A stretch of 64,000 bases of DNA from Portibacter lacus (GTDB lineage: Bacteria > Bacteroidota > Bacteroidia > Chitinophagales > Saprospiraceae): positions 485,001 through 549,000 of the forward strand of contig NZ_JAJNKA010000002.1 in the NCBI RefSeq assembly GCF_021533215.1. Reading direction: 5' to 3'. The translations under genes and the position numbers were made by a program. The stretch's first letter is position 1, and every line of letters starts with the position of its first letter. The notes under the pieces were generated by a model. It was given only the letters and a program-made list of their open reading frames with translations, was not told where the DNA came from and searched no databases. Below are positions 9,265-33,630 of the stretch, in pieces.

Positions 9265-9266
9265 AG

Positions 9267-10190: not shown

Positions 10191-10203
10191 TTCGAAAGTT
10201 GAT

Positions 10204-11259
10204 TTGAAGAAGATTTTAAAATTTTTCTTATTCCTGAATATTGTCTTGGTGATCGTTACGCTTTTCGCCTATCTTTCTCCTTATGCCAATCCTAAGCACC
10301 TCTGGCCGGTTTCAGTAATTGCTGTATTCTATCCTTGGTTGCTACTTTTCAATTTTATCTTTATAGTCTTCTGGATGTTTAATAAGTTTCGATATGCACT
10401 TATTTCTGTTGCTACGATCCTACTAGGGTTTAATTACCTGAATGGCTTCATCGGATTTAACAGCTCTGGTTATATGTCAAGTCCAGACCAGATAGAGATC
10501 CTTAGCTATAATACCCAAAACCTATATTACATCTACAAAACAGAAGAAAACAGAAAGGCTAGGACCGACAAATTCTTCAAATTCATGAAGGACCAGCATG
10601 GAGTCGATATCATCTGTGCACAAGAACTAGGCTTACGATCCATCGAATTATGGAATAAGAAAATGAAATTTCCACACGTTTTTGCTCCAGAAAAAGTAGG
10701 TCCTGTGATTTTCAGCAATCATCCAATTTCAGATCGTGGACAAATTCATTCTGAAGTCTCTACGATTAATTCATGCATCTGGGCGGATATCAGCATTAAA
10801 GGAACGACTTATAGAATATATAATCTGCACATGGAATCGAATAAGATTACCAGAACTGCAGAGAAGGTGATTGAAGAGGTTAACCTACAGAATAAGGAAA
10901 CATGGAGTGGTGTCAAGGCCATTATAAAACGATATAAAAACAACGCTTCGCTCAGAATCGGTCATGCCGAAAGGATTAGAGCGCATATGCTAGAAAGTCC
11001 ATATCCTATAATTTTAGCAGGAGACTTTAACGATGTTCCTATGTCTTACCTTTACCACATTCTAAGCTCAGGCATGAATGATAGTTTTATTAAGAAAGGA
11101 CGAGCATTCGGCACCACATTTGCAGGGAAAATACCGGCATTAAGGATTGATTACATCCTAACGGATAGTCAATTTAAAATTTTGGACCACAAAATAATGA
11201 AAGAAGGATTTTCTGATCATTATCCTATAAAATCAGTTGTCCAATTAAAGCAAGAATAA
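10204..11259 (+). CDS. Membrane-anchored endonuclease/exonuclease/phosphatase-family protein
   Basis: 351 residues. Three N-terminal hydrophobic helices (within about 1-85) precede a periplasmic or cytosolic EEP domain with LSYNTQNLY, the metal-ligand Glu in CAQE (about 139-142), AGDFND (about 273-278) and the final FSDHYPI His. EEP enzymes cut phosphodiesters or phosphomonoesters in nucleic acids or lipids; substrate not predictable. The start is taken as TTG at 10204 because MKKILKFFLFLNI begins there and no ATG is nearby. It closes the mutL-rhomboid run, 13 bp downstream of the second rhomboid. Confidence 0.87.
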   Translation: MKKILKFFLFLNIVLVIVTLFAYLSPYANPKHLWPVSVIAVFYPWLLLFNFIFIVFWMFNKFRYALISVATILLGFNYLNGFIGFNSSGYMSSPDQIEILSYNTQNLYYIYKTEENRKARTDKFFKFMKDQHGVDIICAQELGLRSIELWNKKMKFPHVFAPEKVGPVIFSNHPISDRGQIHSEVSTINSCIWADISIKGTTYRIYNLHMESNKITRTAEKVIEEVNLQNKETWSGVKAIIKRYKNNASLRIGHAERIRAHMLESPYPIILAGDFNDVPMSYLYHILSSGMNDSFIKKGRAFGTTFAGKIPALRIDYILTDSQFKILDHKIMKEGFSDHYPIKSVVQLKQE

Positions 11260-17503: not shown

Positions 17504-18697
17504 ATGATAACCGTTGAAGAAGCACACAGAATTGTACTGAGCAATTGTTCAGTAGCTAGTATTGTATTAGAAAATATTAACGATGTTCAAGGTTACAACC
17601 TTGCTGAAGATATCTACGCTGACCGCAACTTTCCTCCTTTCGATAGAGTAACCATGGATGGAATCGCTATACGATTCGAAGATTATAGCAAAGGTATCAG
17701 AACTTTTAAAATCAATGGAATTGCCGCTGCTGGAAGTGAGCAAATTAGCATTCACAAAAGCGGAGAATGCGTGGAAGCAATGACAGGTGCTATGCTTCCT
17801 GAAAATTCGGACACTGTTATCAGATACGAAGATCTTGAAATCGAAGGCAACAAGGTTACCATTATTGCCGAAAGGGTTACCCATGGCCAAAACATTCATA
17901 GAGAAGGCGAAGACAGAAAAAAAGGTGACTTAATTCTTCGTAAGGGGAAGAGAATCGAAGCTCCAGAGCTAGGTGTCCTTGCAACAGTAGGGAAGAACAT
18001 GGTAAAAATCTATCAAAGACCTAAAATTGCAATCATTTCTTCAGGAGATGAGTTGGTTAATGTTGATACTAAGCCAGAACCTCATCAGATTCGAAAATCG
18101 AACAATTATAGTATTCAAGGTGCATTGACTCAATTTAATTGTGAAATCGACCAATTTCATCTACTAGATGATCCAGATGAAATCACCAATAAAATTCGAG
18201 GCATTCTGAATGAATATGATGTTTTAATATTGAGTGGTGGCGTATCGAAAGGCAAATTTGATTACATCCCTGAGGCCTTAATGCAGCTCGATGTCAAAAA
18301 ATTATTCCATAGGGTTAAGCAACGTCCTGGCAAACCATTCTGGTTCGGTAAGTCTAAAGAAGGAAAGACCGTGTTCGCATTACCAGGAAACCCAGTCTCT
18401 TCTTTCATGTGTACTCACAAATATGTGTTATCATGGATGAGGTGGCACCTCGGTCTCACAGAACCCACGATATATGCCGAACTCGCTTCTGATATAAATT
18501 TCAAACCGAACTTAACTTACTACGCACAAGTGAAATTGACATATAGCAAAACAAGTAAAATATTAGCCCACCCTATCGAGGGAAATGGTTCTGGCGACTT
18601 GGCCAACTTAACAGATGCCGATGCTTTCATGGAATTACCAATGGGGAAAGAAATCTATAAAGCAGGAGAGGTTTATGAAGTTATCCGATTCAGATAA
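17504..18697 (+). CDS. moeA: Molybdopterin molybdenumtransferase MoeA
   Basis: 397 residues with MoeA domain order: the N-terminal ITVEEAHRIVL, FPPFDRVTMDGIAI (substrate loop with the conserved Asp), AAGS, AMTGAMLP, the MoCF-like central domain with SSGDELV and LSGGVSKGKFD, PGKP and FALPGNPVS, and a C-terminal beta domain. It inserts molybdate into adenylylated molybdopterin. Placed immediately beside the convergent molybdenum-hydroxylase cluster, so it probably serves that enzyme. No mogA/mobA is in view. Confidence 0.96.
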   Translation: MITVEEAHRIVLSNCSVASIVLENINDVQGYNLAEDIYADRNFPPFDRVTMDGIAIRFEDYSKGIRTFKINGIAAAGSEQISIHKSGECVEAMTGAMLPENSDTVIRYEDLEIEGNKVTIIAERVTHGQNIHREGEDRKKGDLILRKGKRIEAPELGVLATVGKNMVKIYQRPKIAIISSGDELVNVDTKPEPHQIRKSNNYSIQGALTQFNCEIDQFHLLDDPDEITNKIRGILNEYDVLILSGGVSKGKFDYIPEALMQLDVKKLFHRVKQRPGKPFWFGKSKEGKTVFALPGNPVSSFMCTHKYVLSWMRWHLGLTEPTIYAELASDINFKPNLTYYAQVKLTYSKTSKILAHPIEGNGSGDLANLTDADAFMELPMGKEIYKAGEVYEVIRFR

Positions 18698-18719: not shown

Positions 18720-19832
18720 CTAAATCACAATCTTCAGTAAGTCTTCGACGCTATTGGCCGCTTGAAATACATCGATATATGGCCAGGCCGCTTTCAGACA
18801 TGCTACATCTGGTTTGAAATTAGGATTGGCAGCTAGCGGATTAAGCCAAATAATTTTTCCACTCTTCCGACTGATAATATTCATTGCACGAGCTACCACT
18901 TCAGGTTCGCCAGTATCCCAGCCATCACTTAACACTACCACCTTCGTCTTATGATCTAATAATTGGCTTCCATAATTTATTGCAAAATCTTCCAACGCGG
19001 CTCCAATTTTAGTCCCTCCAGACCATTCATCAAAACTTTCTTTCAATGCATTAAGGACCGTCGGAAAATCGTAATGGCTTAAACTATTTGTTATTCGTTC
19101 CAGTCGAGTACTGAAAACAAAGGTTTCTATCTTGGTTGATGCTTGGTTTAGTCCATACATAAACTGGATTAAGAATTTGGAATAGAGCTCCATCGACTTG
19201 CTTACATCGCAGATGAGGACCAATTTTAATTTCTCTATTTTCCGCTTTTTATACTTGAGGTAAATGATTTCATCGCCCTTCCCGAAATTTGCCCGCATCA
19301 CTTTCCTCAGATCGAGTTGAATGGGCATTTTAACATCTACTGATCGCTGCCCCTTCTTATTAGACCACTTTTTAACCACTAAGCGAGCATGCCTAAGCGT
19401 TTCAGATACATCATCTTTGGCAAAATTTGAAAAGTCCTTGTCGGTAAATTTTTGCTTAGCGTCATAACTAGCCACTGTAACTTCATCATTTTCCTTATTT
19501 CCATTCAGCCACTTTTTCAAAACTTCAACACCAGATTCCTGAGGTTTCGGTTTTTCTTTCTCTTCCGGAACTTCCTTTTGTTTTGAGTTTTCGCCACGCT
19601 TAACTTCGGCCCAGTACTGTAAATAAAGATCATCGAACTTGTCTAATTGGGCTTTATTCTTGGTCAATGTAGACCTAAGTGCTCCTTTGAAATAAGCCGG
19701 ATCTCCGTAAGGAATAACTTCTAAGGCTTGTAATGCTTGAGACTGCTCCAAAGGTCCAATTGTAAAACCCTTGTTTCTAAGAAATCTGCAAAATTGAATC
19801 ACATAAGCGCTTATGGTATTTTGTTTTTCCAA
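18720..19832 (-). CDS. coxE: VWA-domain protein, CoxE-like
   Basis: 370 residues. The N-terminal part (FCRFLRNKGFTIGPLEQSQALQAL) and the C-terminal von Willebrand A domain with a MIDAS motif (DVSKSMELY, then SGGTKIG and LSDGWDTGEP) are typical of CoxE proteins. With the MoxR-type ATPase CoxD, such proteins mature the CO dehydrogenase active site, adding sulfur and copper in Oligotropha. The start is TTG, one base after the coxD stop codon, so translation is probably coupled. No ATG is nearby in frame. Confidence 0.9.
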   Translation of the reverse strand: MEKQNTISAYVIQFCRFLRNKGFTIGPLEQSQALQALEVIPYGDPAYFKGALRSTLTKNKAQLDKFDDLYLQYWAEVKRGENSKQKEVPEEKEKPKPQESGVEVLKKWLNGNKENDEVTVASYDAKQKFTDKDFSNFAKDDVSETLRHARLVVKKWSNKKGQRSVDVKMPIQLDLRKVMRANFGKGDEIIYLKYKKRKIEKLKLVLICDVSKSMELYSKFLIQFMYGLNQASTKIETFVFSTRLERITNSLSHYDFPTVLNALKESFDEWSGGTKIGAALEDFAINYGSQLLDHKTKVVVLSDGWDTGEPEVVARAMNIISRKSGKIIWLNPLAANPNFKPDVACLKAAWPYIDVFQAANSVEDLLKIVI

Positions 19833-19833
19833 G

Positions 19834-20715
19834 TTAATGCACTTTCATTTTAACCTTAACTTTATCAAATAATTCAGAAAGGGAATCCTGAGACAATCGC
19901 GTATCCTGCCAGTCTTTTATAATAATCCCTAGTGTGGATTCAATAATTTTCACATCTAGCGCATCGAAATGCATATTACTCAATGCTAATGCCCAATCTA
20001 AAGTCTCTGCAATTCCTGGCACTTTCTGTAACCTCAACTTTCTTAGCTCTTGCATAAAATAAACAATCTGAGCAGCAAGGCGCTTATTAATCTGTGGCAC
20101 TTTTTGTTCAACGATCTGCTTTTCTTTTTCAAAGTCAGGGAAATCAATCCAAAGATATAAACACCTTCTTCTCAGCGCCTCAGACAACTCCCTATTTCTA
20201 TTAGACGTTAGTATGACGTGCGGAATGGATTTCGCAGCTATGGTTCCTAACTCTGGAATTGAAATTTGATAATCAGAAAGTAATTCTAATAAGAAACTTT
20301 CAAATTCTTCATCTGCTCGATCTATCTCATCGAGCAATAATACAGGTGATGTTTCTTTAGAAATAGATTGCAAAAGCGGCCTTTTCAATAAAAATTTCTC
20401 ACTGAAAATAGTCTCCTCTTTTTCTTCGAGACTTTTCTCACTCTCATCCATTTTCAGGTAAAGCAACTGATGCTGATAATTCCATTCGTAGATAGATTGA
20501 TTCACATCTAAACCCTCGTAACATTGCAATCTAATTAATTCCGTTTCTAGCGCCTTCGCAAGTACTTTCGCTATTTCAGTTTTCCCTACGCCTGGAGGTC
20601 CTTCTATTAATATTGGCTTGTTCAATGATATAGAAAGAAAAACCGACATGGTTATTTTTTCATCGGAGATATAATGGTTTTCCTCAAGTAATCTAGCTAC
20701 TTCTTGAAGCGTCAT
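19834..20715 (-). CDS. coxD: MoxR-type AAA+ ATPase, CoxD-like
   Basis: 293 residues with Walker A GPPGVGKT (39-46), Walker B LLLDEIDRAD (about 127-136), sensor-1 TSNR and an arginine-finger ELSEALRRRCLYLWIDFP region. MoxR/CoxD ATPases act as chaperones that load metal centres together with a VWA partner, here encoded directly downstream. A terminator-like hairpin separates this pair from the coxGSLM genes upstream, so the pair likely has its own promoter in the ~145-bp gap. Confidence 0.92.
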   Translation of the reverse strand: MTLQEVARLLEENHYISDEKITMSVFLSISLNKPILIEGPPGVGKTEIAKVLAKALETELIRLQCYEGLDVNQSIYEWNYQHQLLYLKMDESEKSLEEKEETIFSEKFLLKRPLLQSISKETSPVLLLDEIDRADEEFESFLLELLSDYQISIPELGTIAAKSIPHVILTSNRNRELSEALRRRCLYLWIDFPDFEKEKQIVEQKVPQINKRLAAQIVYFMQELRKLRLQKVPGIAETLDWALALSNMHFDALDVKIIESTLGIIIKDWQDTRLSQDSLSELFDKVKVKMKVH

Positions 20716-20772
20716 AACCTAATTTTTTTTCTATGAAGTAAGAAGGAAAGGTAGTCAATACATATTTTATTC

Positions 20773-20812
20773 ATTAAAAAATGCTTAGTTCATTTGCATG
20801 ACCTAAGCATTT
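20773..20812 (-). terminator. Terminator of the cox structural genes
   Basis: Read on the - strand, AAATGCTTAG (complement of 20803-20812) pairs perfectly with CTAAGCATTT (complement of 20779-20788) around a 14-nt loop and is followed by a short T-run (TTTTTTAATG across the stem end). It lies ~50 bp after the coxM stop, between coxM and coxD. Confidence 0.65.
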
Positions 20813-20860
20813 ATAATGTCTACCCGTAGATCTTCTTACGGTTTAATTTTCTAATTGTTC

Positions 20861-21700
20861 TCAGAGTCGACTGATTGCTCTCTTAGCATATACACATGCT
20901 AAATGAGCTCGGTATTTCTCTGATGCAAAATGATCACTCATCACGTCTACTCCTGCAGTAGCGCCGGCGCAAGCTGTTTCGATATGATCAGCACTGAGAT
21001 CACCACCTTTTAGTGCATTTTCGATTTCTTTAGCTCTATACGCTGAATCACTAACACCTGTAAATGCTATTCGAGCAGCTGAAACAGTCCCATTGTCTTT
21101 CGCAATAGCTGCTGCACATCCTACGATTGCAAACCGCGATGCAGGCTGTACAAATTTCATATAACACGAATTGGCATTTGCTGCACTTTTAGGAATTTTA
21201 ATGCTGGTGATAATTTCATTATCGTTTAAAGCTGTTTCATAAAATCCTTTAAAAAATTGATCTACATCCACTTCTCTATTGCCATTTGCACTAGCGATTA
21301 CAATCTTAGCATCTGCCGCAAGTAATACCGCAGGCCAGTCAGCTGAAGGATCTGCGTGTGCAATCGAACCTCCTATTGTTCCTCTATTTCGTACTTGGAT
21401 GTCACCTATCATGCCTGCAACTTCTGCAACCATGGGTGCATGTTTTTTAAGATCTTCATTTCTAGAAATACTTGCATGTGTCGCCCCAGCCCCTATTGTT
21501 ATGGTCTGGTCATTATTTCTAATTTCTTGAATTGCTTCAATTTTTGAAATATCTACTAAAGCTTCAGGCATATTCAATCTTAACTTCATTGCTGGCACAA
21601 GGGAATGCCCACCTGCTAGGATTTTATCATCCTCACCGAGCATTGCTAGTGCTTCCTGAATAGAATTTGCTTTTTTATATTCAAATGATGCTGGTATCAT
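20861..21700 (-). CDS. coxM: Molybdenum hydroxylase FAD-binding subunit, CoxM/CutM-like
   Basis: 279 residues with both FAD-contact signatures of medium subunits: AGGHSLVPAMKLR (31-43) and TIGGSIAHADPSAD (about 107-120), then the C-terminal CO-dehydrogenase flavoprotein domain. It passes electrons from the [2Fe-2S] subunit to an acceptor. It is 41 bp downstream of coxL, in the order S-L-M rather than the M-S-L of Oligotropha. Confidence 0.94.
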   Translation of the reverse strand: MIPASFEYKKANSIQEALAMLGEDDKILAGGHSLVPAMKLRLNMPEALVDISKIEAIQEIRNNDQTITIGAGATHASISRNEDLKKHAPMVAEVAGMIGDIQVRNRGTIGGSIAHADPSADWPAVLLAADAKIVIASANGNREVDVDQFFKGFYETALNDNEIITSIKIPKSAANANSCYMKFVQPASRFAIVGCAAAIAKDNGTVSAARIAFTGVSDSAYRAKEIENALKGGDLSADHIETACAGATAGVDVMSDHFASEKYRAHLACVYAKRAISRL

Positions 21701-21741
21701 TATTTTTCTATTTTTTTAATTAAAAATTAATTGCCATTAAA

Positions 21742-24105
21742 TCAATTATTCATGGCATTCCATACACGTTCAGAAGTCATTGGCATTTGTATATCTTTTA
21801 CCTTATGACCCGCCTTCCATAATGCGTCGATGACAGCATTAACCACAGCTGGTGTAGAACCGATACATCCTGCTTCACCTGCACCTTTCACTCCTAGTGG
21901 ATTGTGTGGACACGGTGTTACGGTACGATCTATTTCAAAACTTGGCAAATCATCAGCTCTTGGCATCGTATAATCCATGTATGATCCATTAATCAATTGT
22001 CCTCCTTCATCATAAATCGCTCCTTCGAGTAAAGCTTGGCCTATTCCTTGCGCAAGACCTCCATGAATCTGACCATCTACGATCATTGGGTTTATAACAT
22101 TTCCTACATCATCTACCGCTATGAATCTCTTCAACTTCACCTTACCTGTTTCTTTATCAATTTCCACGATAGCGATATGACATCCAAATGGGTAGGTAAA
22201 ATTAGCAGGATCATAGAAAGAACTGAAGTCTAATCCAGGCTCTAGGTCTGCAGGATAATCATGAGGAACATATGCTGTAAGCGAAACATCACCAAAAGCG
22301 ATCGATCGATCTGTTCCTTTAACGGTCCACTTGCCTTCAGCATAATCTAGATCATCTACAGAGGCTTCTAGTTTGTGTGCAGCTATTTTCGCACCTTTTT
22401 CTAATACTTTTTCGATACTCTTCACAATTGCACTTCCACCTACTGCTAAGGATCGTGAACCATAAGTTCCCATTCCGAAAGCCACCGCGTCAGAATCTCC
22501 GTGAATCAAGTCCACATCTTCCATAGGAATACCTAGTTTATCAGCGACAACTTGAACGAAAGTCGTTTCATGGCCTTGACCATGTGAATGCGATCCAGTA
22601 TATACACTTACTTTTCCTGTAGGCTGAACCCTCACTTGAGCGGACTCAAACAATCCTGCTCTAGCACCTAAAGCACCCACTACAGCGGAAGGCGCAATAC
22701 CACAAGCTTCCACATATGTAGAAAACCCAATTCCAAGCAACTTGCCATTTTCTAAACTCTTTTTCTGTTCAGCTCTAAAATCTTCGTAACCAACCATTTC
22801 TAGCGCTTTGTCTAAGACTGGCTGATAATCACCTGAATCGTATTGAAGGGCGACTTGTGTTTGATAACCTGGTTGTTCTATTCCATCAAAAGCAGGTATA
22901 AAGTTCTTTTTTCTTAATTCTGCCGGATCCATATCCATTTCTAAAGCACCTAGATCAATCAGCCGTTCTAATAAATAAGTGGCTTCAGGTCTACCTGCGC
23001 CTCTATAAGCATCTACTGAATTCGTATGTGTAAATGCGGCTACCACATTAACATTTATTAATGGTGTAGTATAGAGTCCCTGCAATAAAGTACCATGCAG
23101 ATAAGTAGGAACCGCTGGTGCAAATGTTGCTAGATAAGCTCCCATATTTGCAAAGGTATCAGATTTCAATGCGACAATCTTCCCATCTTTATCAAATCCC
23201 ATATTAGCTGTTGTCACGTGATCTCTTCCGTGAGCATCAGTCATAAATGCTTCACTTCTGTCTGAAGTCCATTTCACTGGACGATTTATTTGCTTCGAAA
23301 CCCAGACCATCAAAGCTTCTTCTGTATAATGGAATATTTTACTTCCGAAACCACCACCCACATCGTGAGAAACGATACGTACTTTATGTTCTGGAATTCC
23401 TAGCACAAATGCACATAAGAGCAATCTTATCAAGTGCGGATTTTGAGTAGAGGTATATAATGTATATTTATCCAAAGCATCATCATAATGGCCGATAGCA
23501 CTTCGGGGTTCCATAGCATTTGGAATCATTCGTTGATTAATAAATTCTAATGTCGTCACATGATGTGCTGATGCTAATGCAGCATCCACTTCTTCAACTG
23601 GATTTCCTAACTCCCAATCAAAACATATATTATTCGGTGCATCCGGGTGAACTTGAGGTGCTCCTGGTGCTGTTGCTTTCTTCGGATCCGTAACCGCGTC
23701 CATCACATCATAATCCACTTCTACCAAATCGGCAGCATCTCTAGCGATTTCTTTCGTTTCTGCTATTACTACAGCCACTGCATCACCTACATGTCTAACA
23801 TTATCTCTTACCAATAGCGGATGCGCTGGCTCCTTCATGGTATCACCGTTTTTAAAATTGACTTGCCAGCCAGTAGGTACACCTACGATTCCCTCTATAT
23901 CAGAACCCACAAAAACTGCAACGACTCCGTCATGGGCTTTTGCCGCAGCAGTGTCGATAGATAAAACTTTAGCATGAGCATATGGTGATCTAACGATATG
24001 GGCATGAGTCATACCAACTAATTTTATATCGTCTGTATATTTTCCTTTTCCAGTTAAAAAGCGCTTGTCTTCAATACGCTTTACTGATTTTCCTATAAAT
24101 GACAT
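21742..24105 (-). CDS. coxL: Molybdopterin-binding large subunit, form II CoxL/xanthine-dehydrogenase-like
   Basis: 787 residues, with an N-terminal a/b hammerhead domain (about 20-130) and the molybdopterin-binding domains. Key sites: GGGFGSK, the active-site loop AYRGAGRPE (366-374) and the catalytic Glu744 in GVKGAGEAG. The loop lacks the AYRCSFR sequence with the copper-ligand Cys found in form I CO dehydrogenase. So this is a form II-type or generic hydroxylase that oxidises an aldehyde, purine or other heterocycle, possibly CO. It catalyses water-derived hydroxylation at Mo in the cytoplasm. Accessory genes coxG, coxD and coxE are alongside, but no XdhC/CoxF-type gene is. Confidence 0.93.
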   Translation of the reverse strand: MSFIGKSVKRIEDKRFLTGKGKYTDDIKLVGMTHAHIVRSPYAHAKVLSIDTAAAKAHDGVVAVFVGSDIEGIVGVPTGWQVNFKNGDTMKEPAHPLLVRDNVRHVGDAVAVVIAETKEIARDAADLVEVDYDVMDAVTDPKKATAPGAPQVHPDAPNNICFDWELGNPVEEVDAALASAHHVTTLEFINQRMIPNAMEPRSAIGHYDDALDKYTLYTSTQNPHLIRLLLCAFVLGIPEHKVRIVSHDVGGGFGSKIFHYTEEALMVWVSKQINRPVKWTSDRSEAFMTDAHGRDHVTTANMGFDKDGKIVALKSDTFANMGAYLATFAPAVPTYLHGTLLQGLYTTPLINVNVVAAFTHTNSVDAYRGAGRPEATYLLERLIDLGALEMDMDPAELRKKNFIPAFDGIEQPGYQTQVALQYDSGDYQPVLDKALEMVGYEDFRAEQKKSLENGKLLGIGFSTYVEACGIAPSAVVGALGARAGLFESAQVRVQPTGKVSVYTGSHSHGQGHETTFVQVVADKLGIPMEDVDLIHGDSDAVAFGMGTYGSRSLAVGGSAIVKSIEKVLEKGAKIAAHKLEASVDDLDYAEGKWTVKGTDRSIAFGDVSLTAYVPHDYPADLEPGLDFSSFYDPANFTYPFGCHIAIVEIDKETGKVKLKRFIAVDDVGNVINPMIVDGQIHGGLAQGIGQALLEGAIYDEGGQLINGSYMDYTMPRADDLPSFEIDRTVTPCPHNPLGVKGAGEAGCIGSTPAVVNAVIDALWKAGHKVKDIQMPMTSERVWNAMNN

Positions 24106-24143
24106 TTCTTAGATTTTTAAATTAATAATTACACGTTCTAGAA

Positions 24144-24608
24144 TCAAGCAGACATCGTTTCAGCAGCATCTTTTATCGCTGCTACTATATTATGATATCC
24201 TGTACATCTGCAAAAATTACCTTCTAAGGCATGCCTTATTTCATCTTCAGAGGGCGATGGGTTAGTTTCTAAAAAATCACTTACCAGCATAATCATCCCT
24301 GGCGTACAAAATCCACATTGGAGACCATGTTTTTCTTTAAATGAATCTTGAAGTGGATGCATTTTCCCGTTTTCTGCCAAACCTTCTATGGTTTTAACTT
24401 CACAACCATCTACCTGACCTGCTAACAAGGTGCAAGACTTCACTGCTTTACCATCCACATGTACTGTACATGCGCCACATCCACTGGTATCGCAACCTAT
24501 GTGTGTACCAGTCAAACTAAGATCTTCTCGCAAAAAAGTAGATAAGGTGGTTCTTCCTTCTACTTCACGAGTTACTTGTTTGCCATTAACTTTAACTGTA
24601 ATTTCCAT
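24144..24608 (-). CDS. coxS: Molybdenum hydroxylase [2Fe-2S] subunit, CoxS-like
   Basis: 154 residues with the two cluster-binding domains of small subunits: plant-type ferredoxin cysteines C39, C44, C47 and C59 ([10 protein letters not shown]...C) and the second cluster C98, C101 (QCGFC), C133 and C135 (FCRC). It relays electrons from molybdenum to the FAD subunit. Lies 38 bp upstream of coxL and 17 bp downstream of coxG, clearly one operon. Confidence 0.96.
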
Positions 24609-24625
24609 TGGCTAATATTTATTAT

Positions 24626-25075
24626 TTATGTATTCATTAATTCAATTTCCTTATCAAATGCTTCGAAGAATTGCTTCGTCAAAGAATTTGCAACGCCTGA
24701 AACAACTCTTGCTCCAGTTCTAGCTAATAACCCAGACATCTGAGCATTTCCGTCAAATGTGATTTGGGTATCACCATTTCCAACTTCATCAAGATGAATC
24801 ACAACATCAGCTTTTACATTTCCAATTTTACTTTGTTGGGTGACGACAAGCGTAAAGCTCTCTGGCTTTACCAAATCCTTGAGCTCTAGATCACCTTTGA
24901 ATTTTCCTTTTACCGGACCTATCTTCACTTCAGAGACTGCTTCATAATTAGTCTCATCTCTTTTGTTTAATTCAGATATTCCTGGTGTGATTTTTACAAG
25001 TTGATCAGGGTTCATTAACATATCCCACACGACATTTCGGGGAGCTTTTAATACATGATCTCCGTTTAGTTTCAT
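24626..25075 (-). CDS. coxG: CoxG-like SRPBCC protein
   Basis: 149 residues of the SRPBCC/START-like fold (MKLNGDHVLKAPRNVVWDMLMNPDQLVKITPGI, later GxxKGKFKGDLELKDL). CoxG proteins accompany molybdenum hydroxylases; in CO oxidisers they are linked to membrane attachment, possibly through quinone binding, and the visible protein lacks a hydrophobic C-terminal tail. It is the first gene of the coxG-S-L-M operon, which reads leftward from the ~270-bp divergent gap. Confidence 0.9.
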   Translation of the reverse strand: MKLNGDHVLKAPRNVVWDMLMNPDQLVKITPGISELNKRDETNYEAVSEVKIGPVKGKFKGDLELKDLVKPESFTLVVTQQSKIGNVKADVVIHLDEVGNGDTQITFDGNAQMSGLLARTGARVVSGVANSLTKQFFEAFDKEIELMNT

Positions 25076-25344: not shown

Positions 25345-28300
25345 ATGAAATCATCTAATCTATTATTTAGTGCTACTATTAAATTTTTTCTCTTTTCCCT
25401 CCTACTTTTGTTCAGCTTTCATAGTTATGGACAAGTATGTGCTACTGTAACCTTAACCACACAAGCTCAAGTTAATGCCTTTAGTTGCACAAGTATCAAT
25501 GGAGATTTAATTATAAATGATGGAGGAACTGGAAACATTACAGATCTAAATCCAATTTGGACAACTCTACATGGACCAGGTGCCACGATATCGGGAAGAC
25601 TCATAGTCAGCAACTGTCCTAATATTCCATCATTATATGGATTAGATGGAATTGTAAGTATTGGGAATAGGTTCGAAATTGGTAACTGTCCTAATATCAC
25701 CACTTTAAATCATAATAATTTTCCTTTTCAACTAACGAATATTGGAGAATTTCTATATATTCATGATTCTCCCAAACTCACCAACATAAGTGCTTTAAGT
25801 GCACTAACAACCTTGGGGAGTGGTATAAGCATTGCATTTCAAGTTCCTGTTAGTGATTTCAATGTTTTCAATAATGTTACTTCATCTCGTGTAATAGAAA
25901 TAATAAATCTTTCTTCAACAACTATTAATGGTTTTGCAAATCTGACATCTTGCGAATATCTCAATATTTCTGGTTGTCAAAATTTAACTTCTATAAGTGG
26001 TTTTGAAAAATTGCAATCAATAAAACAAGGCACATGGAATGGTATCTATAATATCCTTAATAATCCAAATCTATCATCTGTTAGCGGTCATCCAAATCTT
26101 AATACCGTTAATGCGGTTACCATTACAAATAATCCAAAATTAGCCTCATGTTGTTTCATGCTACCTATATTAGATAATAATCCATCTTCTATTTCTATTT
26201 CAGGTAATGCTGCAGGGTGTAAAAATGTGGGACAAATAGACTCTGCACCCCAATTATCTGCATGTCCACCTAATCGAACGGTATCTACCGGATCCGGTAA
26301 TTGTCTAGGATCCACCTCTGCGATAAGTCCAATCGCTATGGATAATTGTGATCTTTCTTCCTATAATCTCACTTTACTTTCTCCAGATGGATCAACAACA
26401 AATGTTAATAATGTTCCTAATGGTGTTTCGCTAACTTATTCTAACTTGTTGCAAGGGATATCGAAAGTAACGTTTAAAGCTACTGATGCAAGAAACAACA
26501 GTTCTGATTGCTCCTTTAACATAACTGTTAAAGATAATGAAAAGCCCATTTTATCCAATATTCCGCCTAACGTGACCATTCATTGTAACGATAACTTCCC
26601 CACTATTCCTAGTCCAATAATAAATGATAACTGTGATGGCTCTCCAGCTTTAACAGCTGCTTCATCATTAGCTATTGGTAATTGTACACTTGGAGCACCT
26701 GCAGAAATACATTCTTATTCATGGACAGCAACAGATGAATCAGGAAATGAATCCACTGCAAATTGGGAGGTCACTGTGATTAGCGACTTTTCGTTTAACC
26801 TTGGAGCTCCTATAGAAATTTGTGATGCAAGTAATTATATTATAGACCCTGGAAATATCGGAGAATCTTACGCTTGGTCTACAGGTGCATCTTCTCAAGC
26901 AATTAGTGTAAGTTCTTCTGGAACTTATAAAGTAACTATAACAAGTAAAAATGGCTGTTGTTATGAATCAGAAAAAACAGTTGCTTTTTCTAGTCCTCCA
27001 GATGCCACCGCAATGGGTGCAACATTAAATTGTGAAGCTACTGAAGTCCAAATTTTTGGTTCTTCTACAGCAAGTGGTGCTTCTTATTCTTGGACTGGGC
27101 CTGGAGGGTTTATGTCTGATATGCAGAATCCGATGGTTTCAAGCCTTGGAGAATATATATTAACCGTTACTAATGCAGCTGGATGTGGCTCTACTGCATC
27201 AGCATTGGTAATAGGGGATACGGATATTCCCGATGTAAGTGCAGAAGGTGGCACAATAAACTGTGAGACCACATCTATTCAATTAATGGGAAGTTCCGCT
27301 TCATCTGGGGTAACATTTTCTTGGACTGGACCTGACGGATTTACTTCTGATATGCAGAATCCAACAGTAAGTACACCAGGTAATTACATACTTAATGTGC
27401 AATCTGGAAATGGCTGTTCGGGAAGTGCAGATGCTTTGGTTATAGACGATACAAGTCCTCCTGAAATTATACTTTCAGAAGGAATCTTATCTTGTGCGCA
27501 ATCAGAAATTGAATTAAGCGTGGAAGGTGAAGCTTCTTGGACAGGCCCTGATGGATTCACCTCTTCAGATGAAACTATTGTTGTGTCAACTCCAGGTACT
27601 TATTCTGTAACCGTGACAGGAAGTAATTCTTGTACGAATTCTGAAACTGTTGAAATTCTCTCTGATCTAAGTGTTCCAGATATTAGCGCTGAGGGAGGTA
27701 TCATCAATTGCGTTTCCGGGCAAACGACCTTAAGCGGCAATTCTACGACAGAAGGTGCTACCTATTCATGGACTGGGCCTGGAGATTTCACAACAGAAAT
27801 ACAAAACCCTATTGCGATTATAGCAGGTACTTATACTTTAATAGTGACTGGACCTAATGGTTGTTCTTCCACTATGGCTGTTGAGGTTTCTGCAGATATG
27901 GATGCGCCAGAAGTCAGTGTCAATGATGGAAGTGTGGACTGTGTAAATACGTCTACTGAATTGACAGCTTCGACAACCAGTGAAAACATCACTTTTATAT
28001 GGTCTGGACCTAATGGGTTTACAGCAGATGGTGAAAGTATCACAGTCTCTGAACCAGGAGAGTATTTAGTAATGGCCGTTAATGAAAATGGATGTGCTGG
28101 AAGTGCAACCTCTACGGTAGCTGCTAATAACATTATTCCTACTGTCTCTATTTTCGTAGGACCGATAGGATGTCAAACAACCGATGTAACTTTCGCTACA
28201 GAAGTGTCCGAAGGTGTTACCACTTATTCATGGACTGGACCTAATAATTTTACTTCAAACGAAAAAGAACCGGTAATAACTGAAATTGGCACATATACTC

Positions 28301-29520
28301 TTAATGTAACTTCTGAAAACGGTTGTACTTCTATGGCTTCATTCGATGTAATAAGTGATTCTGAAGTACCCGATGCCAATGCAACAGTTGATGGCCTCTT
28401 AACTTGTACACAGAATACCATTACTTTAATGGGAAACACCTCTACTGATACCGTATCTTTCTTTTGGACGGGACCTGATGATTTCACATCAACGCTCCAG
28501 AATCCAACAGTTAGTCAACCAGGTGTCTATATGCTAAGTGTCATTGCCGCTAATGGTTGTGCTGGCCAATCTTCCGTAGAGGTAATGGGTGACGGTGAAT
28601 TCCCAACGGTCAATGCAACTGGAGGAGACATCAATTGTAATAACAGCTCGGTTATCCTTTTAGGTACTACCAATATAGAAAATGCCACTTTTAGATGGGA
28701 AGGTCCTAACGGTTTCGCAACTTCGATTAGCAATCCTGAAGTTGAAATTGCAGGAGAATACACCTTTACTGTTACAAGTGAAGGAGGATGCGTTGCTTTT
28801 AAAACTGTAACCGTAAACATCGACAACCAAGATCCAAATCTTAGTTTGAGCGAGGGTTTCTTAGATTGCAATGCTGGAGTTCGTAATTTCAGAGTAGTAA
28901 CGAATGCTCAAGACCCTACGATCCTATGGACGGGACCTGACAATTATTCTTCTACAGAGCTAAATGCACCTTATTCACAAGCGGGCATCTACAGCCTTTC
29001 AGTAACTGGTTCTAACGGTTGCAGCTCCCAACTTTCTATAGAAGTAGATCACGATATTGCGTATGTCCACACACTAAACATTACAGGAAATGATGCATCT
29101 CTAGAGATAGAAGGTGGAACTCCTCCATTCATAATTACTTGGGATAATGATATAGAAGGATCTGAAGTTTCTGATTTAGCGGATGGTGAACATTTTGTAA
29201 AAATAGTAGATGGCCTAGATTGTACCAAGTTTGTTGAATTCACGATTAGCACATCCAGTGTCACAGACTTAGAAAAAGCGTTAGAGCTTAAAATCTACCC
29301 AAATCCAGTTGTGGATCAATTAAAAATTGAATGGGTAACCACAGATTTCGAACCTAAAAATTTAGAAATTATCAACGCGAACGGTAGAAAATTACAACGC
29401 ACCGATATTGCTGGAAAAAATAATCAAGTAGTAGATATGAGCGACTTAACACCTGGTATCTATTTCGTAAGAATGGAAGGAAAAGATTCAGTAATCTATA
29501 AGAAGTTTTTAAAAATGTAA
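25345..29520 (+). CDS. Large T9SS-exported protein with HYR and nine Ig-like repeats
   Basis: 1391 residues. Signal peptide to about residue 30 (FHSYGQ); a leucine-rich receptor-L-like region (about 45-290, segments such as LTNISALSALTTLG); HYR-type beta domains (about 300-480); one divergent Ig-like unit; then nine tandem ~77-residue units (from residue 553, nt 27001, to about 29060). Each unit has the core YSWTGPxGFTSxxQNPxVSxxGxYxLxVTxxNGC, with one cysteine pair per unit. The end is a type A sorting domain (IYPNPVVDQLKIEW...GIYFVRMEG). Likely a cell-surface adhesin or matrix protein. It sits divergently from coxG and is 20 bp upstream of the haloacid dehalogenase gene. Confidence 0.88.
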   Translation: MKSSNLLFSATIKFFLFSLLLLFSFHSYGQVCATVTLTTQAQVNAFSCTSINGDLIINDGGTGNITDLNPIWTTLHGPGATISGRLIVSNCPNIPSLYGLDGIVSIGNRFEIGNCPNITTLNHNNFPFQLTNIGEFLYIHDSPKLTNISALSALTTLGSGISIAFQVPVSDFNVFNNVTSSRVIEIINLSSTTINGFANLTSCEYLNISGCQNLTSISGFEKLQSIKQGTWNGIYNILNNPNLSSVSGHPNLNTVNAVTITNNPKLASCCFMLPILDNNPSSISISGNAAGCKNVGQIDSAPQLSACPPNRTVSTGSGNCLGSTSAISPIAMDNCDLSSYNLTLLSPDGSTTNVNNVPNGVSLTYSNLLQGISKVTFKATDARNNSSDCSFNITVKDNEKPILSNIPPNVTIHCNDNFPTIPSPIINDNCDGSPALTAASSLAIGNCTLGAPAEIHSYSWTATDESGNESTANWEVTVISDFSFNLGAPIEICDASNYIIDPGNIGESYAWSTGASSQAISVSSSGTYKVTITSKNGCCYESEKTVAFSSPPDATAMGATLNCEATEVQIFGSSTASGASYSWTGPGGFMSDMQNPMVSSLGEYILTVTNAAGCGSTASALVIGDTDIPDVSAEGGTINCETTSIQLMGSSASSGVTFSWTGPDGFTSDMQNPTVSTPGNYILNVQSGNGCSGSADALVIDDTSPPEIILSEGILSCAQSEIELSVEGEASWTGPDGFTSSDETIVVSTPGTYSVTVTGSNSCTNSETVEILSDLSVPDISAEGGIINCVSGQTTLSGNSTTEGATYSWTGPGDFTTEIQNPIAIIAGTYTLIVTGPNGCSSTMAVEVSADMDAPEVSVNDGSVDCVNTSTELTASTTSENITFIWSGPNGFTADGESITVSEPGEYLVMAVNENGCAGSATSTVAANNIIPTVSIFVGPIGCQTTDVTFATEVSEGVTTYSWTGPNNFTSNEKEPVITEIGTYTLNVTSENGCTSMASFDVISDSEVPDANATVDGLLTCTQNTITLMGNTSTDTVSFFWTGPDDFTSTLQNPTVSQPGVYMLSVIAANGCAGQSSVEVMGDGEFPTVNATGGDINCNNSSVILLGTTNIENATFRWEGPNGFATSISNPEVEIAGEYTFTVTSEGGCVAFKTVTVNIDNQDPNLSLSEGFLDCNAGVRNFRVVTNAQDPTILWTGPDNYSSTELNAPYSQAGIYSLSVTGSNGCSSQLSIEVDHDIAYVHTLNITGNDASLEIEGGTPPFIITWDNDIEGSEVSDLADGEHFVKIVDGLDCTKFVEFTISTSSVTDLEKALELKIYPNPVVDQLKIEWVTTDFEPKNLEIINANGRKLQRTDIAGKNNQVVDMSDLTPGIYFVRMEGKDSVIYKKFLKM

Positions 29521-30314: not shown

Positions 30315-31304
30315 CTAGCCTCCTATCGTGCTCATGCTCTCACTTACTGGGAAGTTTAATGCTCTTTTCTTTTCCGCTTCGAATCCATCTTTTGCTTTGC
30401 CCGATACAGCTTCATAGATTGCTAATGAAATTTCCTCATCGGTAGCGCCTGCTCTCATGATGTTTTTGATGTTAAACACGCCTTCATCATAAAGACAAGT
30501 TTTCACCACCCCTTTCGGTGTAAGTCGAATTCGATTACAACTTCCGCAAAACGTTCGGCTATATGCAGCAATGATTCCGAAAGAACCTTGACCTCCTTCT
30601 AATTGATAATTATAAGCTGTAGAATTCGCAGGATCTTGTAATTTGTTGATCTTCGGAAACGTAGATTCTATTTCAGACAAGATCTTTTTATAGTCCCATA
30701 CTAAGTGCCCCTTTTCCTTCCCTTCTCCATTAAATGGCATTTCTTCGATAAATCGAACACTGACCGGAAGCTCTTGTGTTAACTTAACCAAAGGAATAAT
30801 ATCCTGATCGTTAATTCCAGCCATCACCACACAATTGATTTTCACACTGAATCCCATATCAATCATTCGGTAGAAGCACTCCATGACGACGTCATATTCA
30901 TCACGTCTAGTTATTGCAAAAAACCGCTCTTTATCAAGAGTATCCAAACTTAGGTTTATACTTCGAACTCCATATTTCCACAGTTCATCCAGGTATTTTC
31001 CAGTAACTGTCCCATTAGTGGTCAAGTTAATTTTTTCGATTCCGTCGATCTCTGACAACCCCTTTATGAAAAACATAATATCTCTTCTCAACAATGGTTC
31101 TCCTCCTGTGATCCTAACTTTCGAAACCCCTTCTTTCGCAAATATTCTAGACAATCTCAATAGCTCCTCCCAGCTTAGCAACTCTTCCTTCGGGACATAC
31201 TTTATGCCTTCTTCCGGCATACAATACGTGCACCTCAGATTACAGCGATCTGTTACTGCAATTCTAAGGTAATCTGCGACTCTATTGTATTTATCTTTTA
31301 ACAA
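30315..31304 (-). CDS. moaA: GTP 3',8-cyclase MoaA
   Basis: 329 residues. Radical-SAM cluster C21-x3-C25-x2-C28 (CNLRCTYC), second [4Fe-4S] site C253, C256 and C270 (CGSCNRIRLTPKGVVKTC), and the conserved C-terminal Gly-Gly (STIGG). It makes 3',8-cyclo-GTP, the first step of molybdopterin synthesis. Read divergently from the sulfur/moaD/moaE operon across a ~45-bp gap, so the two promoters must overlap. moaC is not in this window. Confidence 0.97.
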   Translation of the reverse strand: MLKDKYNRVADYLRIAVTDRCNLRCTYCMPEEGIKYVPKEELLSWEELLRLSRIFAKEGVSKVRITGGEPLLRRDIMFFIKGLSEIDGIEKINLTTNGTVTGKYLDELWKYGVRSINLSLDTLDKERFFAITRRDEYDVVMECFYRMIDMGFSVKINCVVMAGINDQDIIPLVKLTQELPVSVRFIEEMPFNGEGKEKGHLVWDYKKILSEIESTFPKINKLQDPANSTAYNYQLEGGQGSFGIIAAYSRTFCGSCNRIRLTPKGVVKTCLYDEGVFNIKNIMRAGATDEEISLAIYEAVSGKAKDGFEAEKKRALNFPVSESMSTIGG

Positions 31305-31350
31305 GCTGAATGTTTAACTATTTCGAAAATTAACTGTTTATTTGGAATAT

Positions 31351-32532
31351 ATGTTTAATTCATCAGACATAAAGAAGAATTTTCCCATTTTCGACCACTA
31401 CCCGGATTTGGTCTTTGCTGATAATGCCTCTACTACCCAGAAACCAAGCAATGTAATCGATGCCATTTCCGACTACTACAAAACTTCCAATGCTAATGTT
31501 CATCGGGCTGTTTATGATCTAGGTGTAAAATCAGATGAGATCTACCACAATACTAGGTTAAAGTTATGTCAATTTTACAATAAGGAGGAAGCTATTTTTA
31601 CTGGCGGCACTACTGATGGAATAAATAAACTCGCACGTGCCATTTCCACAATACTCGAGAACGATTCCAATATCGTCGTTTCCGAAATGGAACATCATTC
31701 TAATTTACTGCCATGGCAAGCGCTGCATAATGAACTTAGAGTTGCTCGCATGACTGACACTGGTGACTTAGACTTAGCGCATCTAGCATCCTTAATAGAT
31801 GATCAGACCCGAGTCGTATCCCTCGTGCATATTTCGAATACTCTAGGCAGCATCAACGATCTTTCTAAAGTGGCAAATTTACTAGCAGGTCGCAATTGCA
31901 TCTTTATAGTTGATGCAGCACAATCATGTTTACTTCACAGAGATTCGATCAGCAAGATCAATGCTGATGCATTTGTTTTCGGAGCACATAAAATGTTTGG
32001 CCCAAGTGGTCTTGGTGTCTTATTAGCGAAGCAAAAATTTCTTGATCAACTACCATCATTTGATTTAGGAGGTGGGATGGTAACCGAGGTCGAGGAACAG
32101 CACGCTGAGTTCAGAAAGGACATTTCGAGATTCGAAGCTGGAACTCCACCTCTTGCTCAGGTTGCTGGAATGCATGCTACCTTAACCTATCTGGAAGGTT
32201 TGGATTTAGGTCAATGTATTACGCATACCCATTCGTTAGCCATAAAGCTTCGAGAATCATTATCGGAAATCGGAGTTCAGTGTTTAGGGAATCCAAAAGA
32301 TCTTTCTGGAATTGTATCTGCGACTTTTGGTGAAATTCATCCACACGATGCTGCTTCTTTTCTGAACAGTAAAAACATTGCAGTAAGAGCAGGACATCAC
32401 TGCACACAATTAATTATGAAAAAATATGATATTCACGCAAGTGTTCGGTTTTCATTTTCGATCTACAATGATCTTAGCGATGTTGAAAAGATAGTAGATG
32501 CTGTAAAATCTATGAAAAAGTATTTCGGATGA
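31351..32532 (+). CDS. Cysteine desulfurase, SufS-type
   Basis: 393 residues, fold-type I PLP enzyme. PLP lysine 214 in FGAHKMFGPSGLG and catalytic Cys351 in RAGHHCTQ; DAAQS holds the PLP aspartate. The ATG at 31351 is used; an in-frame TTG at 31342 would add three codons. SufS enzymes release sulfur from cysteine as a persulfide. The stop overlaps the SufU-like start (ATGA), and moaD and moaE follow. Sulfur supply for the MoaD thiocarboxylate or for the terminal sulfido ligand of the hydroxylase cofactor is therefore at least as likely as Fe-S assembly (inference). Confidence 0.88.
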   Translation: MFNSSDIKKNFPIFDHYPDLVFADNASTTQKPSNVIDAISDYYKTSNANVHRAVYDLGVKSDEIYHNTRLKLCQFYNKEEAIFTGGTTDGINKLARAISTILENDSNIVVSEMEHHSNLLPWQALHNELRVARMTDTGDLDLAHLASLIDDQTRVVSLVHISNTLGSINDLSKVANLLAGRNCIFIVDAAQSCLLHRDSISKINADAFVFGAHKMFGPSGLGVLLAKQKFLDQLPSFDLGGGMVTEVEEQHAEFRKDISRFEAGTPPLAQVAGMHATLTYLEGLDLGQCITHTHSLAIKLRESLSEIGVQCLGNPKDLSGIVSATFGEIHPHDAASFLNSKNIAVRAGHHCTQLIMKKYDIHASVRFSFSIYNDLSDVEKIVDAVKSMKKYFG

Positions 32533-32927
32533 GTAATTTAGATCAGATATATAAAAAACAGATTCTGGAGGAAGCCAAGCACCCTTTTCATTTTGAGAAG
32601 CGAGAAGGGAGTTTAGAGCAGATCAGAGCATATAATCCGATTTGTGGAGATCGATTTGACCTGTATCTTTCAGAGAATGACTTGCATTTTCATGGTTTCG
32701 GTTGCACCATTTCTAAAGCTTCTACGTCTTTTATGCTTAGAAGATTAGAGGGAAAGACTGACCAAGAAAAGTTGGAAATCATAAATGAGTTTCTTAAGTC
32801 CATAGACCAAAACTTGTCGATTAACGATCCGATGCTTAAGGTATTCGAAAACAAAGAAACATTTAGAGGCAGGCTGGATTGTATAATTCTGCCATGGAAA
32901 GCACTGAAGGAAAAATTAGAAGAATAG
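32529..32927 (+). CDS. SufU-like sulfur-transfer protein
   Basis: 132 residues of the IscU/SufU fold. Three conserved cysteines and an aspartate are visible: C39 and D41 in NPICGD, C59 in HGFGCTISKAS, and C118 in RLDCIILPWKAL. The C-terminal RxxCxxLxWxAL pattern is that of zinc-binding SufU, which accepts persulfide sulfur from SufS, rather than of a classical IscU scaffold. Translationally coupled to the desulfurase by a 4-bp overlap, and 44 bp before moaD. Confidence 0.87.
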   Translation: MSNLDQIYKKQILEEAKHPFHFEKREGSLEQIRAYNPICGDRFDLYLSENDLHFHGFGCTISKASTSFMLRRLEGKTDQEKLEIINEFLKSIDQNLSINDPMLKVFENKETFRGRLDCIILPWKALKEKLEE

Positions 32928-32971
32928 AATCATTTTTCGGATGATCTGATAAAATGTACTAATTTAAAGTT

Positions 32972-33214
32972 ATGAAAATTGATCTACTTGCTTTTGGAAT
33001 TGCTAAAGATATACTGGGTTATACACAGAGCAGTTATATGGTAGAGCATTCTATAAGCATAGCAGATCTCAAAAAACAATTAAGCAATCAATTTCCATCG
33101 TTTGAGAAGTTATCGAAATTTGATATTGCGGTCAATCAAGAATATCAATCTGATGATTTCGAGCTCAGTGAAAATGATGAAGTTGCTATTATTCCACCAG
33201 TAAGCGGAGGCTAA
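32972..33214 (+). CDS. moaD: Molybdopterin synthase small subunit MoaD
   Basis: 80 residues, ubiquitin-like fold ending in the required Gly-Gly (IIPPVSGG). The C-terminus is adenylylated and thiocarboxylated and then donates sulfur to the pterin. The activating enzyme MoeB is not in the window. The stop codon shares one base with the moaE start (TAATG), so the subunits are translated together. Confidence 0.93.
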   Translation: MKIDLLAFGIAKDILGYTQSSYMVEHSISIADLKKQLSNQFPSFEKLSKFDIAVNQEYQSDDFELSENDEVAIIPPVSGG

Positions 33215-33630
33215 TGATTAATATTAAACTAACAGATCAGGAACTTTCTCCTTCAGAATGCGAACAACTAATTCTCGATGACCAAGCAGGAGGTCACGTA
33301 GTATTTATCGGAACGGTAAGAAATCATACTTCTTCTAAGACTGTAAAATATCTAGATTTTGAGGCTTATGGACCAATGGCCGAGAAAGAAATGCATAAAA
33401 TTGCAGCAGCGGCAAAAGATCGCTATGACATCTTACACATAGTGATTCATCATCGAACTGGCAAATTAGCTATAGGAGAAATCCCTGTAATTATTGCCGT
33501 TTCTTCTGCTCATCGAAAAGCAGCATTTGAAGCATGTGAATTTTGCATTGATACCTTAAAGGAAACGGTACCTATCTGGAAGAAAGAATATTTCGAAGAT
33601 GGAGAGGTTTGGGTTGCTGCACATCCTTAG
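33214..33630 (+). CDS. moaE: Molybdopterin synthase large subunit MoaE
   Basis: 138 residues with MoaE signatures: GGHVVFIGTVRNHTSSKTV, LDFEAYGPMAEKEM, HRTGKLAIGE, and the catalytic Lys region PIWKKEYFEDGE. With MoaD it converts cyclic pyranopterin monophosphate to molybdopterin. It ends the sufS-sufU-moaD-moaE operon; the following peptidase gene begins ~48 bp later. Confidence 0.95.
   Translation: MINIKLTDQELSPSECEQLILDDQAGGHVVFIGTVRNHTSSKTVKYLDFEAYGPMAEKEMHKIAAAAKDRYDILHIVIHHRTGKLAIGEIPVIIAVSSAHRKAAFEACEFCIDTLKETVPIWKKEYFEDGEVWVAAHP

Follow-up and report, generated by a model that had tools for sequence, protein, structure and literature searches.

What does a SufS-SufU pair do directly in front of the genes for molybdopterin synthase? 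The question is raised by a 64-kb stretch of the Portibacter lacus genome (hereafter the window; positions 485001-549000 of contig C22 in a 6.3-Mb genome rated 100% complete), in which genes for a cysteine desulfurase and a putative SufU-type zinc sulfurtransferase run into moaD and moaE. We propose, with a probability of about 0.75, that the pair is dedicated to sulfur supply for the molybdenum cofactor (Moco). This role is favored because iron-sulfur (Fe-S) cluster assembly by the ISC system is encoded elsewhere in the genome, SufBD has no match, sufU is linked to Moco genes and co-occurs with them, a clade of XdhC follows SufU, and the catalytic residues of both proteins are kept. The four genes are as follows.

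31351-32532, plus strand: sufS, type II cysteine desulfurase (open reading frame [ORF]; Aminotran_5 / TIGR01979); an alternative TTG start gives 31342-32532.
32529-32927, plus strand: sufU, putative SufU-type zinc sulfurtransferase (ORF; NifU_N / TIGR01994).
32972-33214, plus strand: moaD, molybdopterin synthase small subunit (ThiS / TIGR01682), with a C-terminal Gly-Gly.
33214-33630, plus strand: moaE, molybdopterin synthase large subunit (MoaE family).

The TGA of sufS and the ATG of sufU overlap by 4 bp in ATGA (32529-32532), sufU and moaD are separated by 44 bp, and moaD and moaE share 1 bp. An earlier interpretation made from the letters alone (the sequence-only reading) had described a SufS-type and a SufU protein with a 4-bp overlap leading into moaD and moaE, and both the ORFs and the family matches agree with it. 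All four proteins exceed the Pfam cut-offs (for SufU, NifU_N scores 39.4 against 22) but stay below those of NCBIfam (SufS, 383 against 475.1; SufU, 89.5 against 92.5; MoaD, 57.1 against 66.15; MoaE, 107 against 175), and because of this we regard them as divergent members of their families. Despite its score below the cut-off, TIGR01979 is the best-scoring family for the window SufS. A promoter and terminator scan gave no excess over shuffled sequences (13 versus 13.6 and 4 versus 2.9).

No sufB, sufC or sufD gene lies nearby, as the sequence-only reading had pointed out, and SUFBD_core (PF01458) had no match in the whole genome, compared to 14 of 14 control genomes that gave one. An iscS-iscU-iscA cluster is found on contig C11, scoring above the NF010611 and TIGR01999 cut-offs. 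Since ISC is present and SUFBD_core is without a match, ISC is the general Fe-S route of this bacterium. The sequence-only reading had looked to a second complete suf operon as the sign of dedicated copies; none was found in the genome, and ISC takes that place. It had also held that general Fe-S assembly would be the simpler role if these were the only sufS and sufU. The window sufU is indeed the only sufU found in the genome (besides its product, the only NifU_N protein over the cut-off is the IscU of C11), and the window SufS is the best SufS. However, the step from there to an Fe-S role fails, because ISC and not SUF is the general system.

The search for a second SufS covered the window SufS, IscS and six more of the 22 genome matches to PF00266, with the proteins of L005, L006 and L008 scanned over the matched stretch only. 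Five of the six scored 143, 178, 149, 139 and 116 against the cut-off of 475.1 and the sixth is SerC; besides the window SufS, the proteins examined are thus IscS, NifS-like, SerC or distant.

At the protein level, the catalytic residues of the Zn-SufU/SufS relay are conserved, since the window SufS retains the pyridoxal phosphate lysine (Lys217), the zinc-swap histidine (His335) and the catalytic cysteine (Cys354; numbering from the TTG at 31342), and SufU retains Cys39, Asp41, Cys59 and Cys118 of the zinc/acceptor site. His335 was matched to the zinc-swap histidine by alignment to Bacillus subtilis SufS, with the residue numbering counted by hand. Cys and His were present in 90 of the 91 rows of the SufS alignment and Lys in 88, the remaining rows being gaps. 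Similarly, C39, D41 and C59 were found in 113/113 rows of the SufU alignment and C118 in 112/113, the single miss again being a gap. Compared to the IscU of the same genome, SufU has Asp117 at the position of the histidine preceding the third cysteine and 16 extra residues between the second and third cysteines. According to the legend of a figure in PMC10216065, both the insertion and the missing IscU/NifU histidine are SufU features. An AlphaFold2 model of SufU (eight relatives; predicted local distance difference test score, 88.6) matched B. subtilis SufU (6jzv_A) with a template-modelling score of 0.87 at 30% identity. For Mycobacterium tuberculosis, PMC10216065 describes that the SufS residue corresponding to His335, His354, binds the zinc of SufU and thereby frees the acceptor cysteine, E. 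coli SufS having a tyrosine there.

Could the pair instead form an auxiliary Fe-S unit with SufU as its scaffold, for instance for MoaA or the [2Fe-2S] clusters of the hydroxylase encoded in the window? B. subtilis SufU is termed an essential scaffold in the title of a paper cited by PMC8300815, Thermotoga thermarum, which is without SufBCD, is interpreted in PMC4148951 as using SufU alone, and PDB entry 9dcl is titled [2Fe-2S] SufU. On the other hand, the genome has an ISC cluster and no match to SufBD, SufU carries Asp where IscU/NifU has His, sufB, sufC and sufD were near sufU in none of the 80 related loci described below, and the clade that accompanies SufU is one of XdhC, a Moco handler. 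We thus consider a scaffold function quite improbable.

To place the dedicated Moco role in a wider context, we turn to the 198 genomes of the order, of which 9, including that of the window, have SufU. Here, "without SufU" means no match to the window SufU at an E value of 1e-3, a definition that divergent SufU may escape. The order sufS-sufU-moaD-moaE recurs in G031, a member of the same genus, and in G116, and because of this recurrence the arrangement is not due to chance. In G186, moaDE lies 2 kb from sufSU; G179 and G161 harbor moeA-sufU; in G184, sufSU is beside xdhC; and no Moco gene was found on the 9.5-kb contig of G122. The ninth genome, G005, has a sufBCDSU operon.

Across the order, MoaE was detected in 87 genomes, the molybdenum hydroxylase domain MoCoBD_2 in 75, XdhC in 69 and SufBD in 122. 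MoaE, MoCoBD_2 and XdhC were all present in 8/8 genomes whose SufU lies outside a suf operon; the sequence-only reading had suggested looking for co-occurrence of the four-gene order with molybdenum hydroxylases. The corresponding p values, which ignore shared ancestry, are 1e-3 (MoaE), 3e-4 (MoCoBD_2) and 2e-4 (XdhC), or 7e-3, 2e-3 and 1e-3 with G005 counted. G005 itself has none of the three. SufBD was not found in 6 of the 8 genomes, among them G122, which is 75% complete.

Two peptide patterns derived from eight SufU sequences (all but that of G005) were searched against 84,980 species genomes, which returned 158 relatives, of which the best 80 were kept. A core Moco gene (moaA, moaD, moaE, moeA, xdhC or a hydroxylase subunit gene) was located within 9 kb of sufU in 51/80 loci and within 1.5 kb in 45/80, the starting point being seeds of which 7/8 have Moco neighbors. 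A sufS gene was found within 9 kb in 59/80 loci, and sufB, sufC or sufD in 0/80. Four seeds recur among the 80 (G031 as L071, G116 as L107, G186 as L112 and G122 as L130); without them, the counts are 48/76 for Moco genes, 56/76 for sufS and 0/76 for sufB, sufC and sufD. The loci often sit on short contigs; 45 are flanked by 3 kb or more on each side, and a Moco gene is present in 28 of these. Two metagenome-assembled genomes (MAGs) contribute two loci each (L072 and L094; L080 and L144). The gene right after sufU is moaD in 24/80 loci, xdhC in 7 and moaE in 1, and in 6 the contig ends or there is no next gene.

Two further proteins recur at distances of up to 5 kb from sufU, in many cases with xdhC as a neighbor: a second ThiS/MoaD-like protein of 90 amino acids (L131, 2441-2713, and similar) in 9/80 loci, and a repeat protein of the BNR/sortilin-like type with about 358 amino acids (L138, 11011-12087, and similar) in 21/80. 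In the genome of the window, too, a BNR-like gene adjoins xdhC (L018, 9790-10866).

As a contrast, we took the best 29 loci, apart from the window, of a phylum-wide search. They comprise G031 again, L161 (moaE-sufS-sufU), L176 (sufS-sufU only) and 26 loci with sufD and/or sufT. The latter and G005 form a suf-operon set of 27, for 26 of which about 1.5 kb was read on each side. The SufD probe works, since it detected sufD in 23/26 phylum loci at 34-66% identity. A core Moco gene was found in the stretch read in 0/27 suf-operon loci, compared to 45/80 loci within 1.5 kb above (Fisher p 3e-8, a descriptive value, the suf-operon group having been defined by its neighbors). The SufS of all 27 fall into one group (Shimodaira-Hasegawa-like approximate likelihood ratio test [SH-aLRT], 99), with L176 as the sole extra row, and splitting suf-operon from other sequences takes 2 changes in the SufU tree. 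Rows below 300 residues and L150 were left out of the SufS trees, L161 also from the SufS tree of the suf-operon contrast, and rows below 100 residues and L150 from the SufU tree. L161 (G498) belongs to another family of the class and has a long branch; its moaE-sufS-sufU order may have arisen independently or by transfer.

Which Moco protein would receive the sulfur? In the genome of the window, xdhC lies about 108 kb from the window genes on the same contig, near a gene for a MobA-like nucleotidyltransferase. We analyzed an XdhC tree of 111 rows, namely 87 of the 89 matches of the order and 24 sufU-linked XdhC from the 80 loci; 2 of the 26 linked XdhC, of at most 230 residues, a 33-residue fragment (G188) and a match below the cut-off (G163) were omitted. 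One clade (SH-aLRT, 100) holds 31 of the 35 rows from SufU genomes. It is represented in 7/8 SufU genomes of the order versus 0/76 rows from the 61 genomes that have XdhC and no match to SufU, and it includes genomes with xdhC far from sufU, such as that of the window. Within the window's own family, clade-type XdhC occurs in 6/6 SufU genomes versus 0/25 other XdhC genomes. Outside the clade stand four rows, made up of additional XdhC copies from G116, G179 and G184 plus the one from G122. In a tree of the best loci only, the SufU split costs 1 change, compared to 5 in the full set, in which the second copies and G122 stand outside. Overall, linkage points to MoaD and co-inheritance to XdhC, both of which are sulfur-using steps of the Moco pathway.

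This raises the alternative that the pair serves molybdopterin synthase only, with the SufU persulfide charging MoaD via a MoeB-rhodanese protein and the sulfur of the Mo=S ligand coming from elsewhere. Indeed, moaD is the commonest identified gene downstream of sufU (24/80), and in the window sufSU stands directly before moaDE and far from xdhC. Furthermore, the genome encodes two ThiF-family proteins, a MoeZ-like fusion of MoeB and rhodanese (contig C43) and a member of an E1-Ub-E2-like cluster. However, the window SufU has no match in 79/87 MoaE genomes of the order, a SufU-tied clade exists for XdhC and none for MoaD or MoaE, and 14 of the 26 loci with xdhC near sufU have neither moaD nor moaE in the stretch. 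A role restricted to MoaD is thus unlikely.

The second ThiF protein was rejected as a MoeB candidate on account of its neighbors. At G000:C11:626577-628996 (L208, 7578-9997), genes for a ThiF-family E1, a YukD/ubiquitin-like protein and a ubiquitin-conjugating-enzyme-like (E2-like) protein stand in a row, as in a bacterial E1-Ub-E2-like set.

Several observations weigh against a dedicated Moco role. Besides the shared ancestry that the co-occurrence statistics ignore and the way in which the suf-operon group was defined, the pair is not needed for Moco generally, because 79/87 MoaE genomes are without a match. No Moco gene was nearby in 29/80 loci, including 17 of the 45 flanked by 3 kb or more on each side. 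In these 29 genomes, whose completeness is unstated, MoaE was found elsewhere in 22 and not found in 7. L129 (about 9001-11000; G594, 5.8 Mb), where a reversed sufU-sufS pair stands in a genome in which MoaE was not found, is at odds with a role in Moco alone, provided that the MAG is complete. SufS and SufU are not always together either, because sufS was not found within 9 kb in 21/80 loci, of which 8 have 3 kb or more on each side. G122 (75% complete) has SufU and an XdhC outside the clade, and the MoaD and MoaE trees, built on short alignments and, for MoaE, on the best 30 of 88, show no clade of SufU genomes. Finally, SufU may hold clusters, because a structure of the M. tuberculosis protein titled [2Fe-2S] exists in PDB (9dcl).

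The Moco-unlinked loci could mean that the pair provides sulfur more generally, as a second source for tRNA thiolation, thiamine or stress, and only accompanies the Moco genes. MoaE was not detected in 7 of these 29 genomes, and the MoeB-rhodanese fusion could also charge ThiS. In contrast, MoaE, XdhC and MoCoBD_2 accompany SufU in 8/8 genomes, and sufU repeatedly adjoins different Moco genes, which leaves a general source very improbable.

We therefore retain dedicated Moco sulfuration as our preferred explanation. The sequence-only reading had suggested MoaD or the Mo-S ligand, and not Fe-S clusters, as the destination of the sulfur, and this proposal gains support from ISC, the missing SufBD match, the Moco neighborhood, the co-occurrence and the XdhC clade. 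In the mechanism that we envisage, SufS would take sulfur from L-cysteine as a persulfide on Cys354. SufU would dock on SufS, its zinc would exchange a ligand to His335 of SufS, and Cys39 of SufU would receive the persulfide, as reported for SufSU of M. tuberculosis and B. subtilis. SufU would then pass the sulfur to Moco proteins in place of SufBCD. Judging from the comparative data, the most likely receiver is XdhC-bound Moco, which would gain its terminal Mo=S ligand for the CoxL-type hydroxylase; MoaD, via the MoeB-rhodanese fusion, is probably a second receiver, charged for the dithiolene sulfurs. More tentatively, and at somewhat less than even odds, a SUF pair may have been removed from Fe-S assembly in part of the Bacteroidetes (Bacteroidota) to become the donor for both Moco sulfur steps, the MoaD thiocarboxylate and Mo=S, with a co-inherited XdhC subfamily taking the persulfide from Zn-SufU.

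The window harbors further Moco genes. The stretch from 18720 to 25075 encodes a molybdenum hydroxylase resembling CO dehydrogenase/aldehyde oxidase, with CoxG-, MadB- and CoxE/MadC-like genes.

17504-18697, plus strand: moeA, molybdopterin molybdotransferase.
18720-19832, minus strand: CoxE/MadC-like von Willebrand factor A protein.
19834-20715, minus strand: CoxD/MadB-like AAA ATPase (the MadB name is from NCBIfam).
20861-21700, minus strand: flavin adenine dinucleotide subunit of the molybdenum hydroxylase.
21742-24105, minus strand: molybdenum-binding large subunit of the hydroxylase, CoxL-like; the motif AYRGAGR, read directly, is presumably tied to form II.
24144-24608, minus strand: [2Fe-2S] subunit of the hydroxylase.
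24626-25075, minus strand: CoxG-like protein.
30315-31304, minus strand: moaA, GTP 3',8-cyclase (TIGR02666, above the cut-off), divergent from sufS.

Between the hydroxylase genes and moaA, positions 25345-29520 encode a 1391-residue protein that combines Ig/PKD-like matches and repeats recognized by eye with a Por_Secre_tail sorting domain (type IX secretion). G031 has a 1394-residue ORF at the equivalent place (L032, 12966-17150).

If the dedicated role holds, SufS-SufU would be a persulfide relay that is portable and can be separated from SufBCD, and the donor of Moco sulfur would be named for part of the Bacteroidota. Annotating sufS and sufU as Fe-S assembly genes by name may then mislead in this phylum. 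A SufU without SufB or SufD in a genome with iscS-iscU-iscA also offers a clean case for the question of sulfurtransferase versus scaffold.

How does such a pair compare to known systems? The closest parallel is Rhodobacter capsulatus, where NifS4 sulfurates Moco on XdhC and nifS4 is reported to be apparently essential (PMC2997495). In both cases a desulfurase supplies Mo=S on XdhC-bound Moco for an enzyme of the xanthine oxidase family, as shown there and proposed here. Unlike our pair, in which a type II SufS would act with a Zn-SufU acceptor, NifS4 acts directly on XdhC, and SufU is not mentioned in the passages on NifS4. The SufS-SufU systems of B. subtilis and M. tuberculosis (PMC10216065; PDB 5xt5 and 8odq) share with the window the protein families, the zinc ligands and the His and Cys of SufS; as described there, however, they serve SUF Fe-S assembly, whereas here SufBD has no match and the neighbors are Moco genes. 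Delivery of desulfurase sulfur to the MoaD thiocarboxylate is likewise known from the E. coli IscS(-TusA) route to MoeB/MoaD (PMC8300815, PMC5372717). There, IscS and not SufS serves MoaD, whose sulfuration is stated to fall in iscS and not in sufS mutants (PMC8300815), and the human MOCS3 rhodanese fusion is described as receiving sulfur from the desulfurase NFS1 (PMC5372717); the difference here is a separate SufS-SufU pair beside moaD. Eukaryotic ABA3, as presented in PMC2997495 and PMC8931425, is also a NifS-like desulfurase specialized for Moco sulfuration, but it is one protein fused to a MOSC domain, whereas SufS, SufU and XdhC are separate here. No publication proposing SufU as a Moco sulfur donor was found in our searches of the open-licence literature. 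A desulfurase for Moco sulfuration is thus known from NifS4 and ABA3, and what would be new is SufS-SufU in that job without SufBD.

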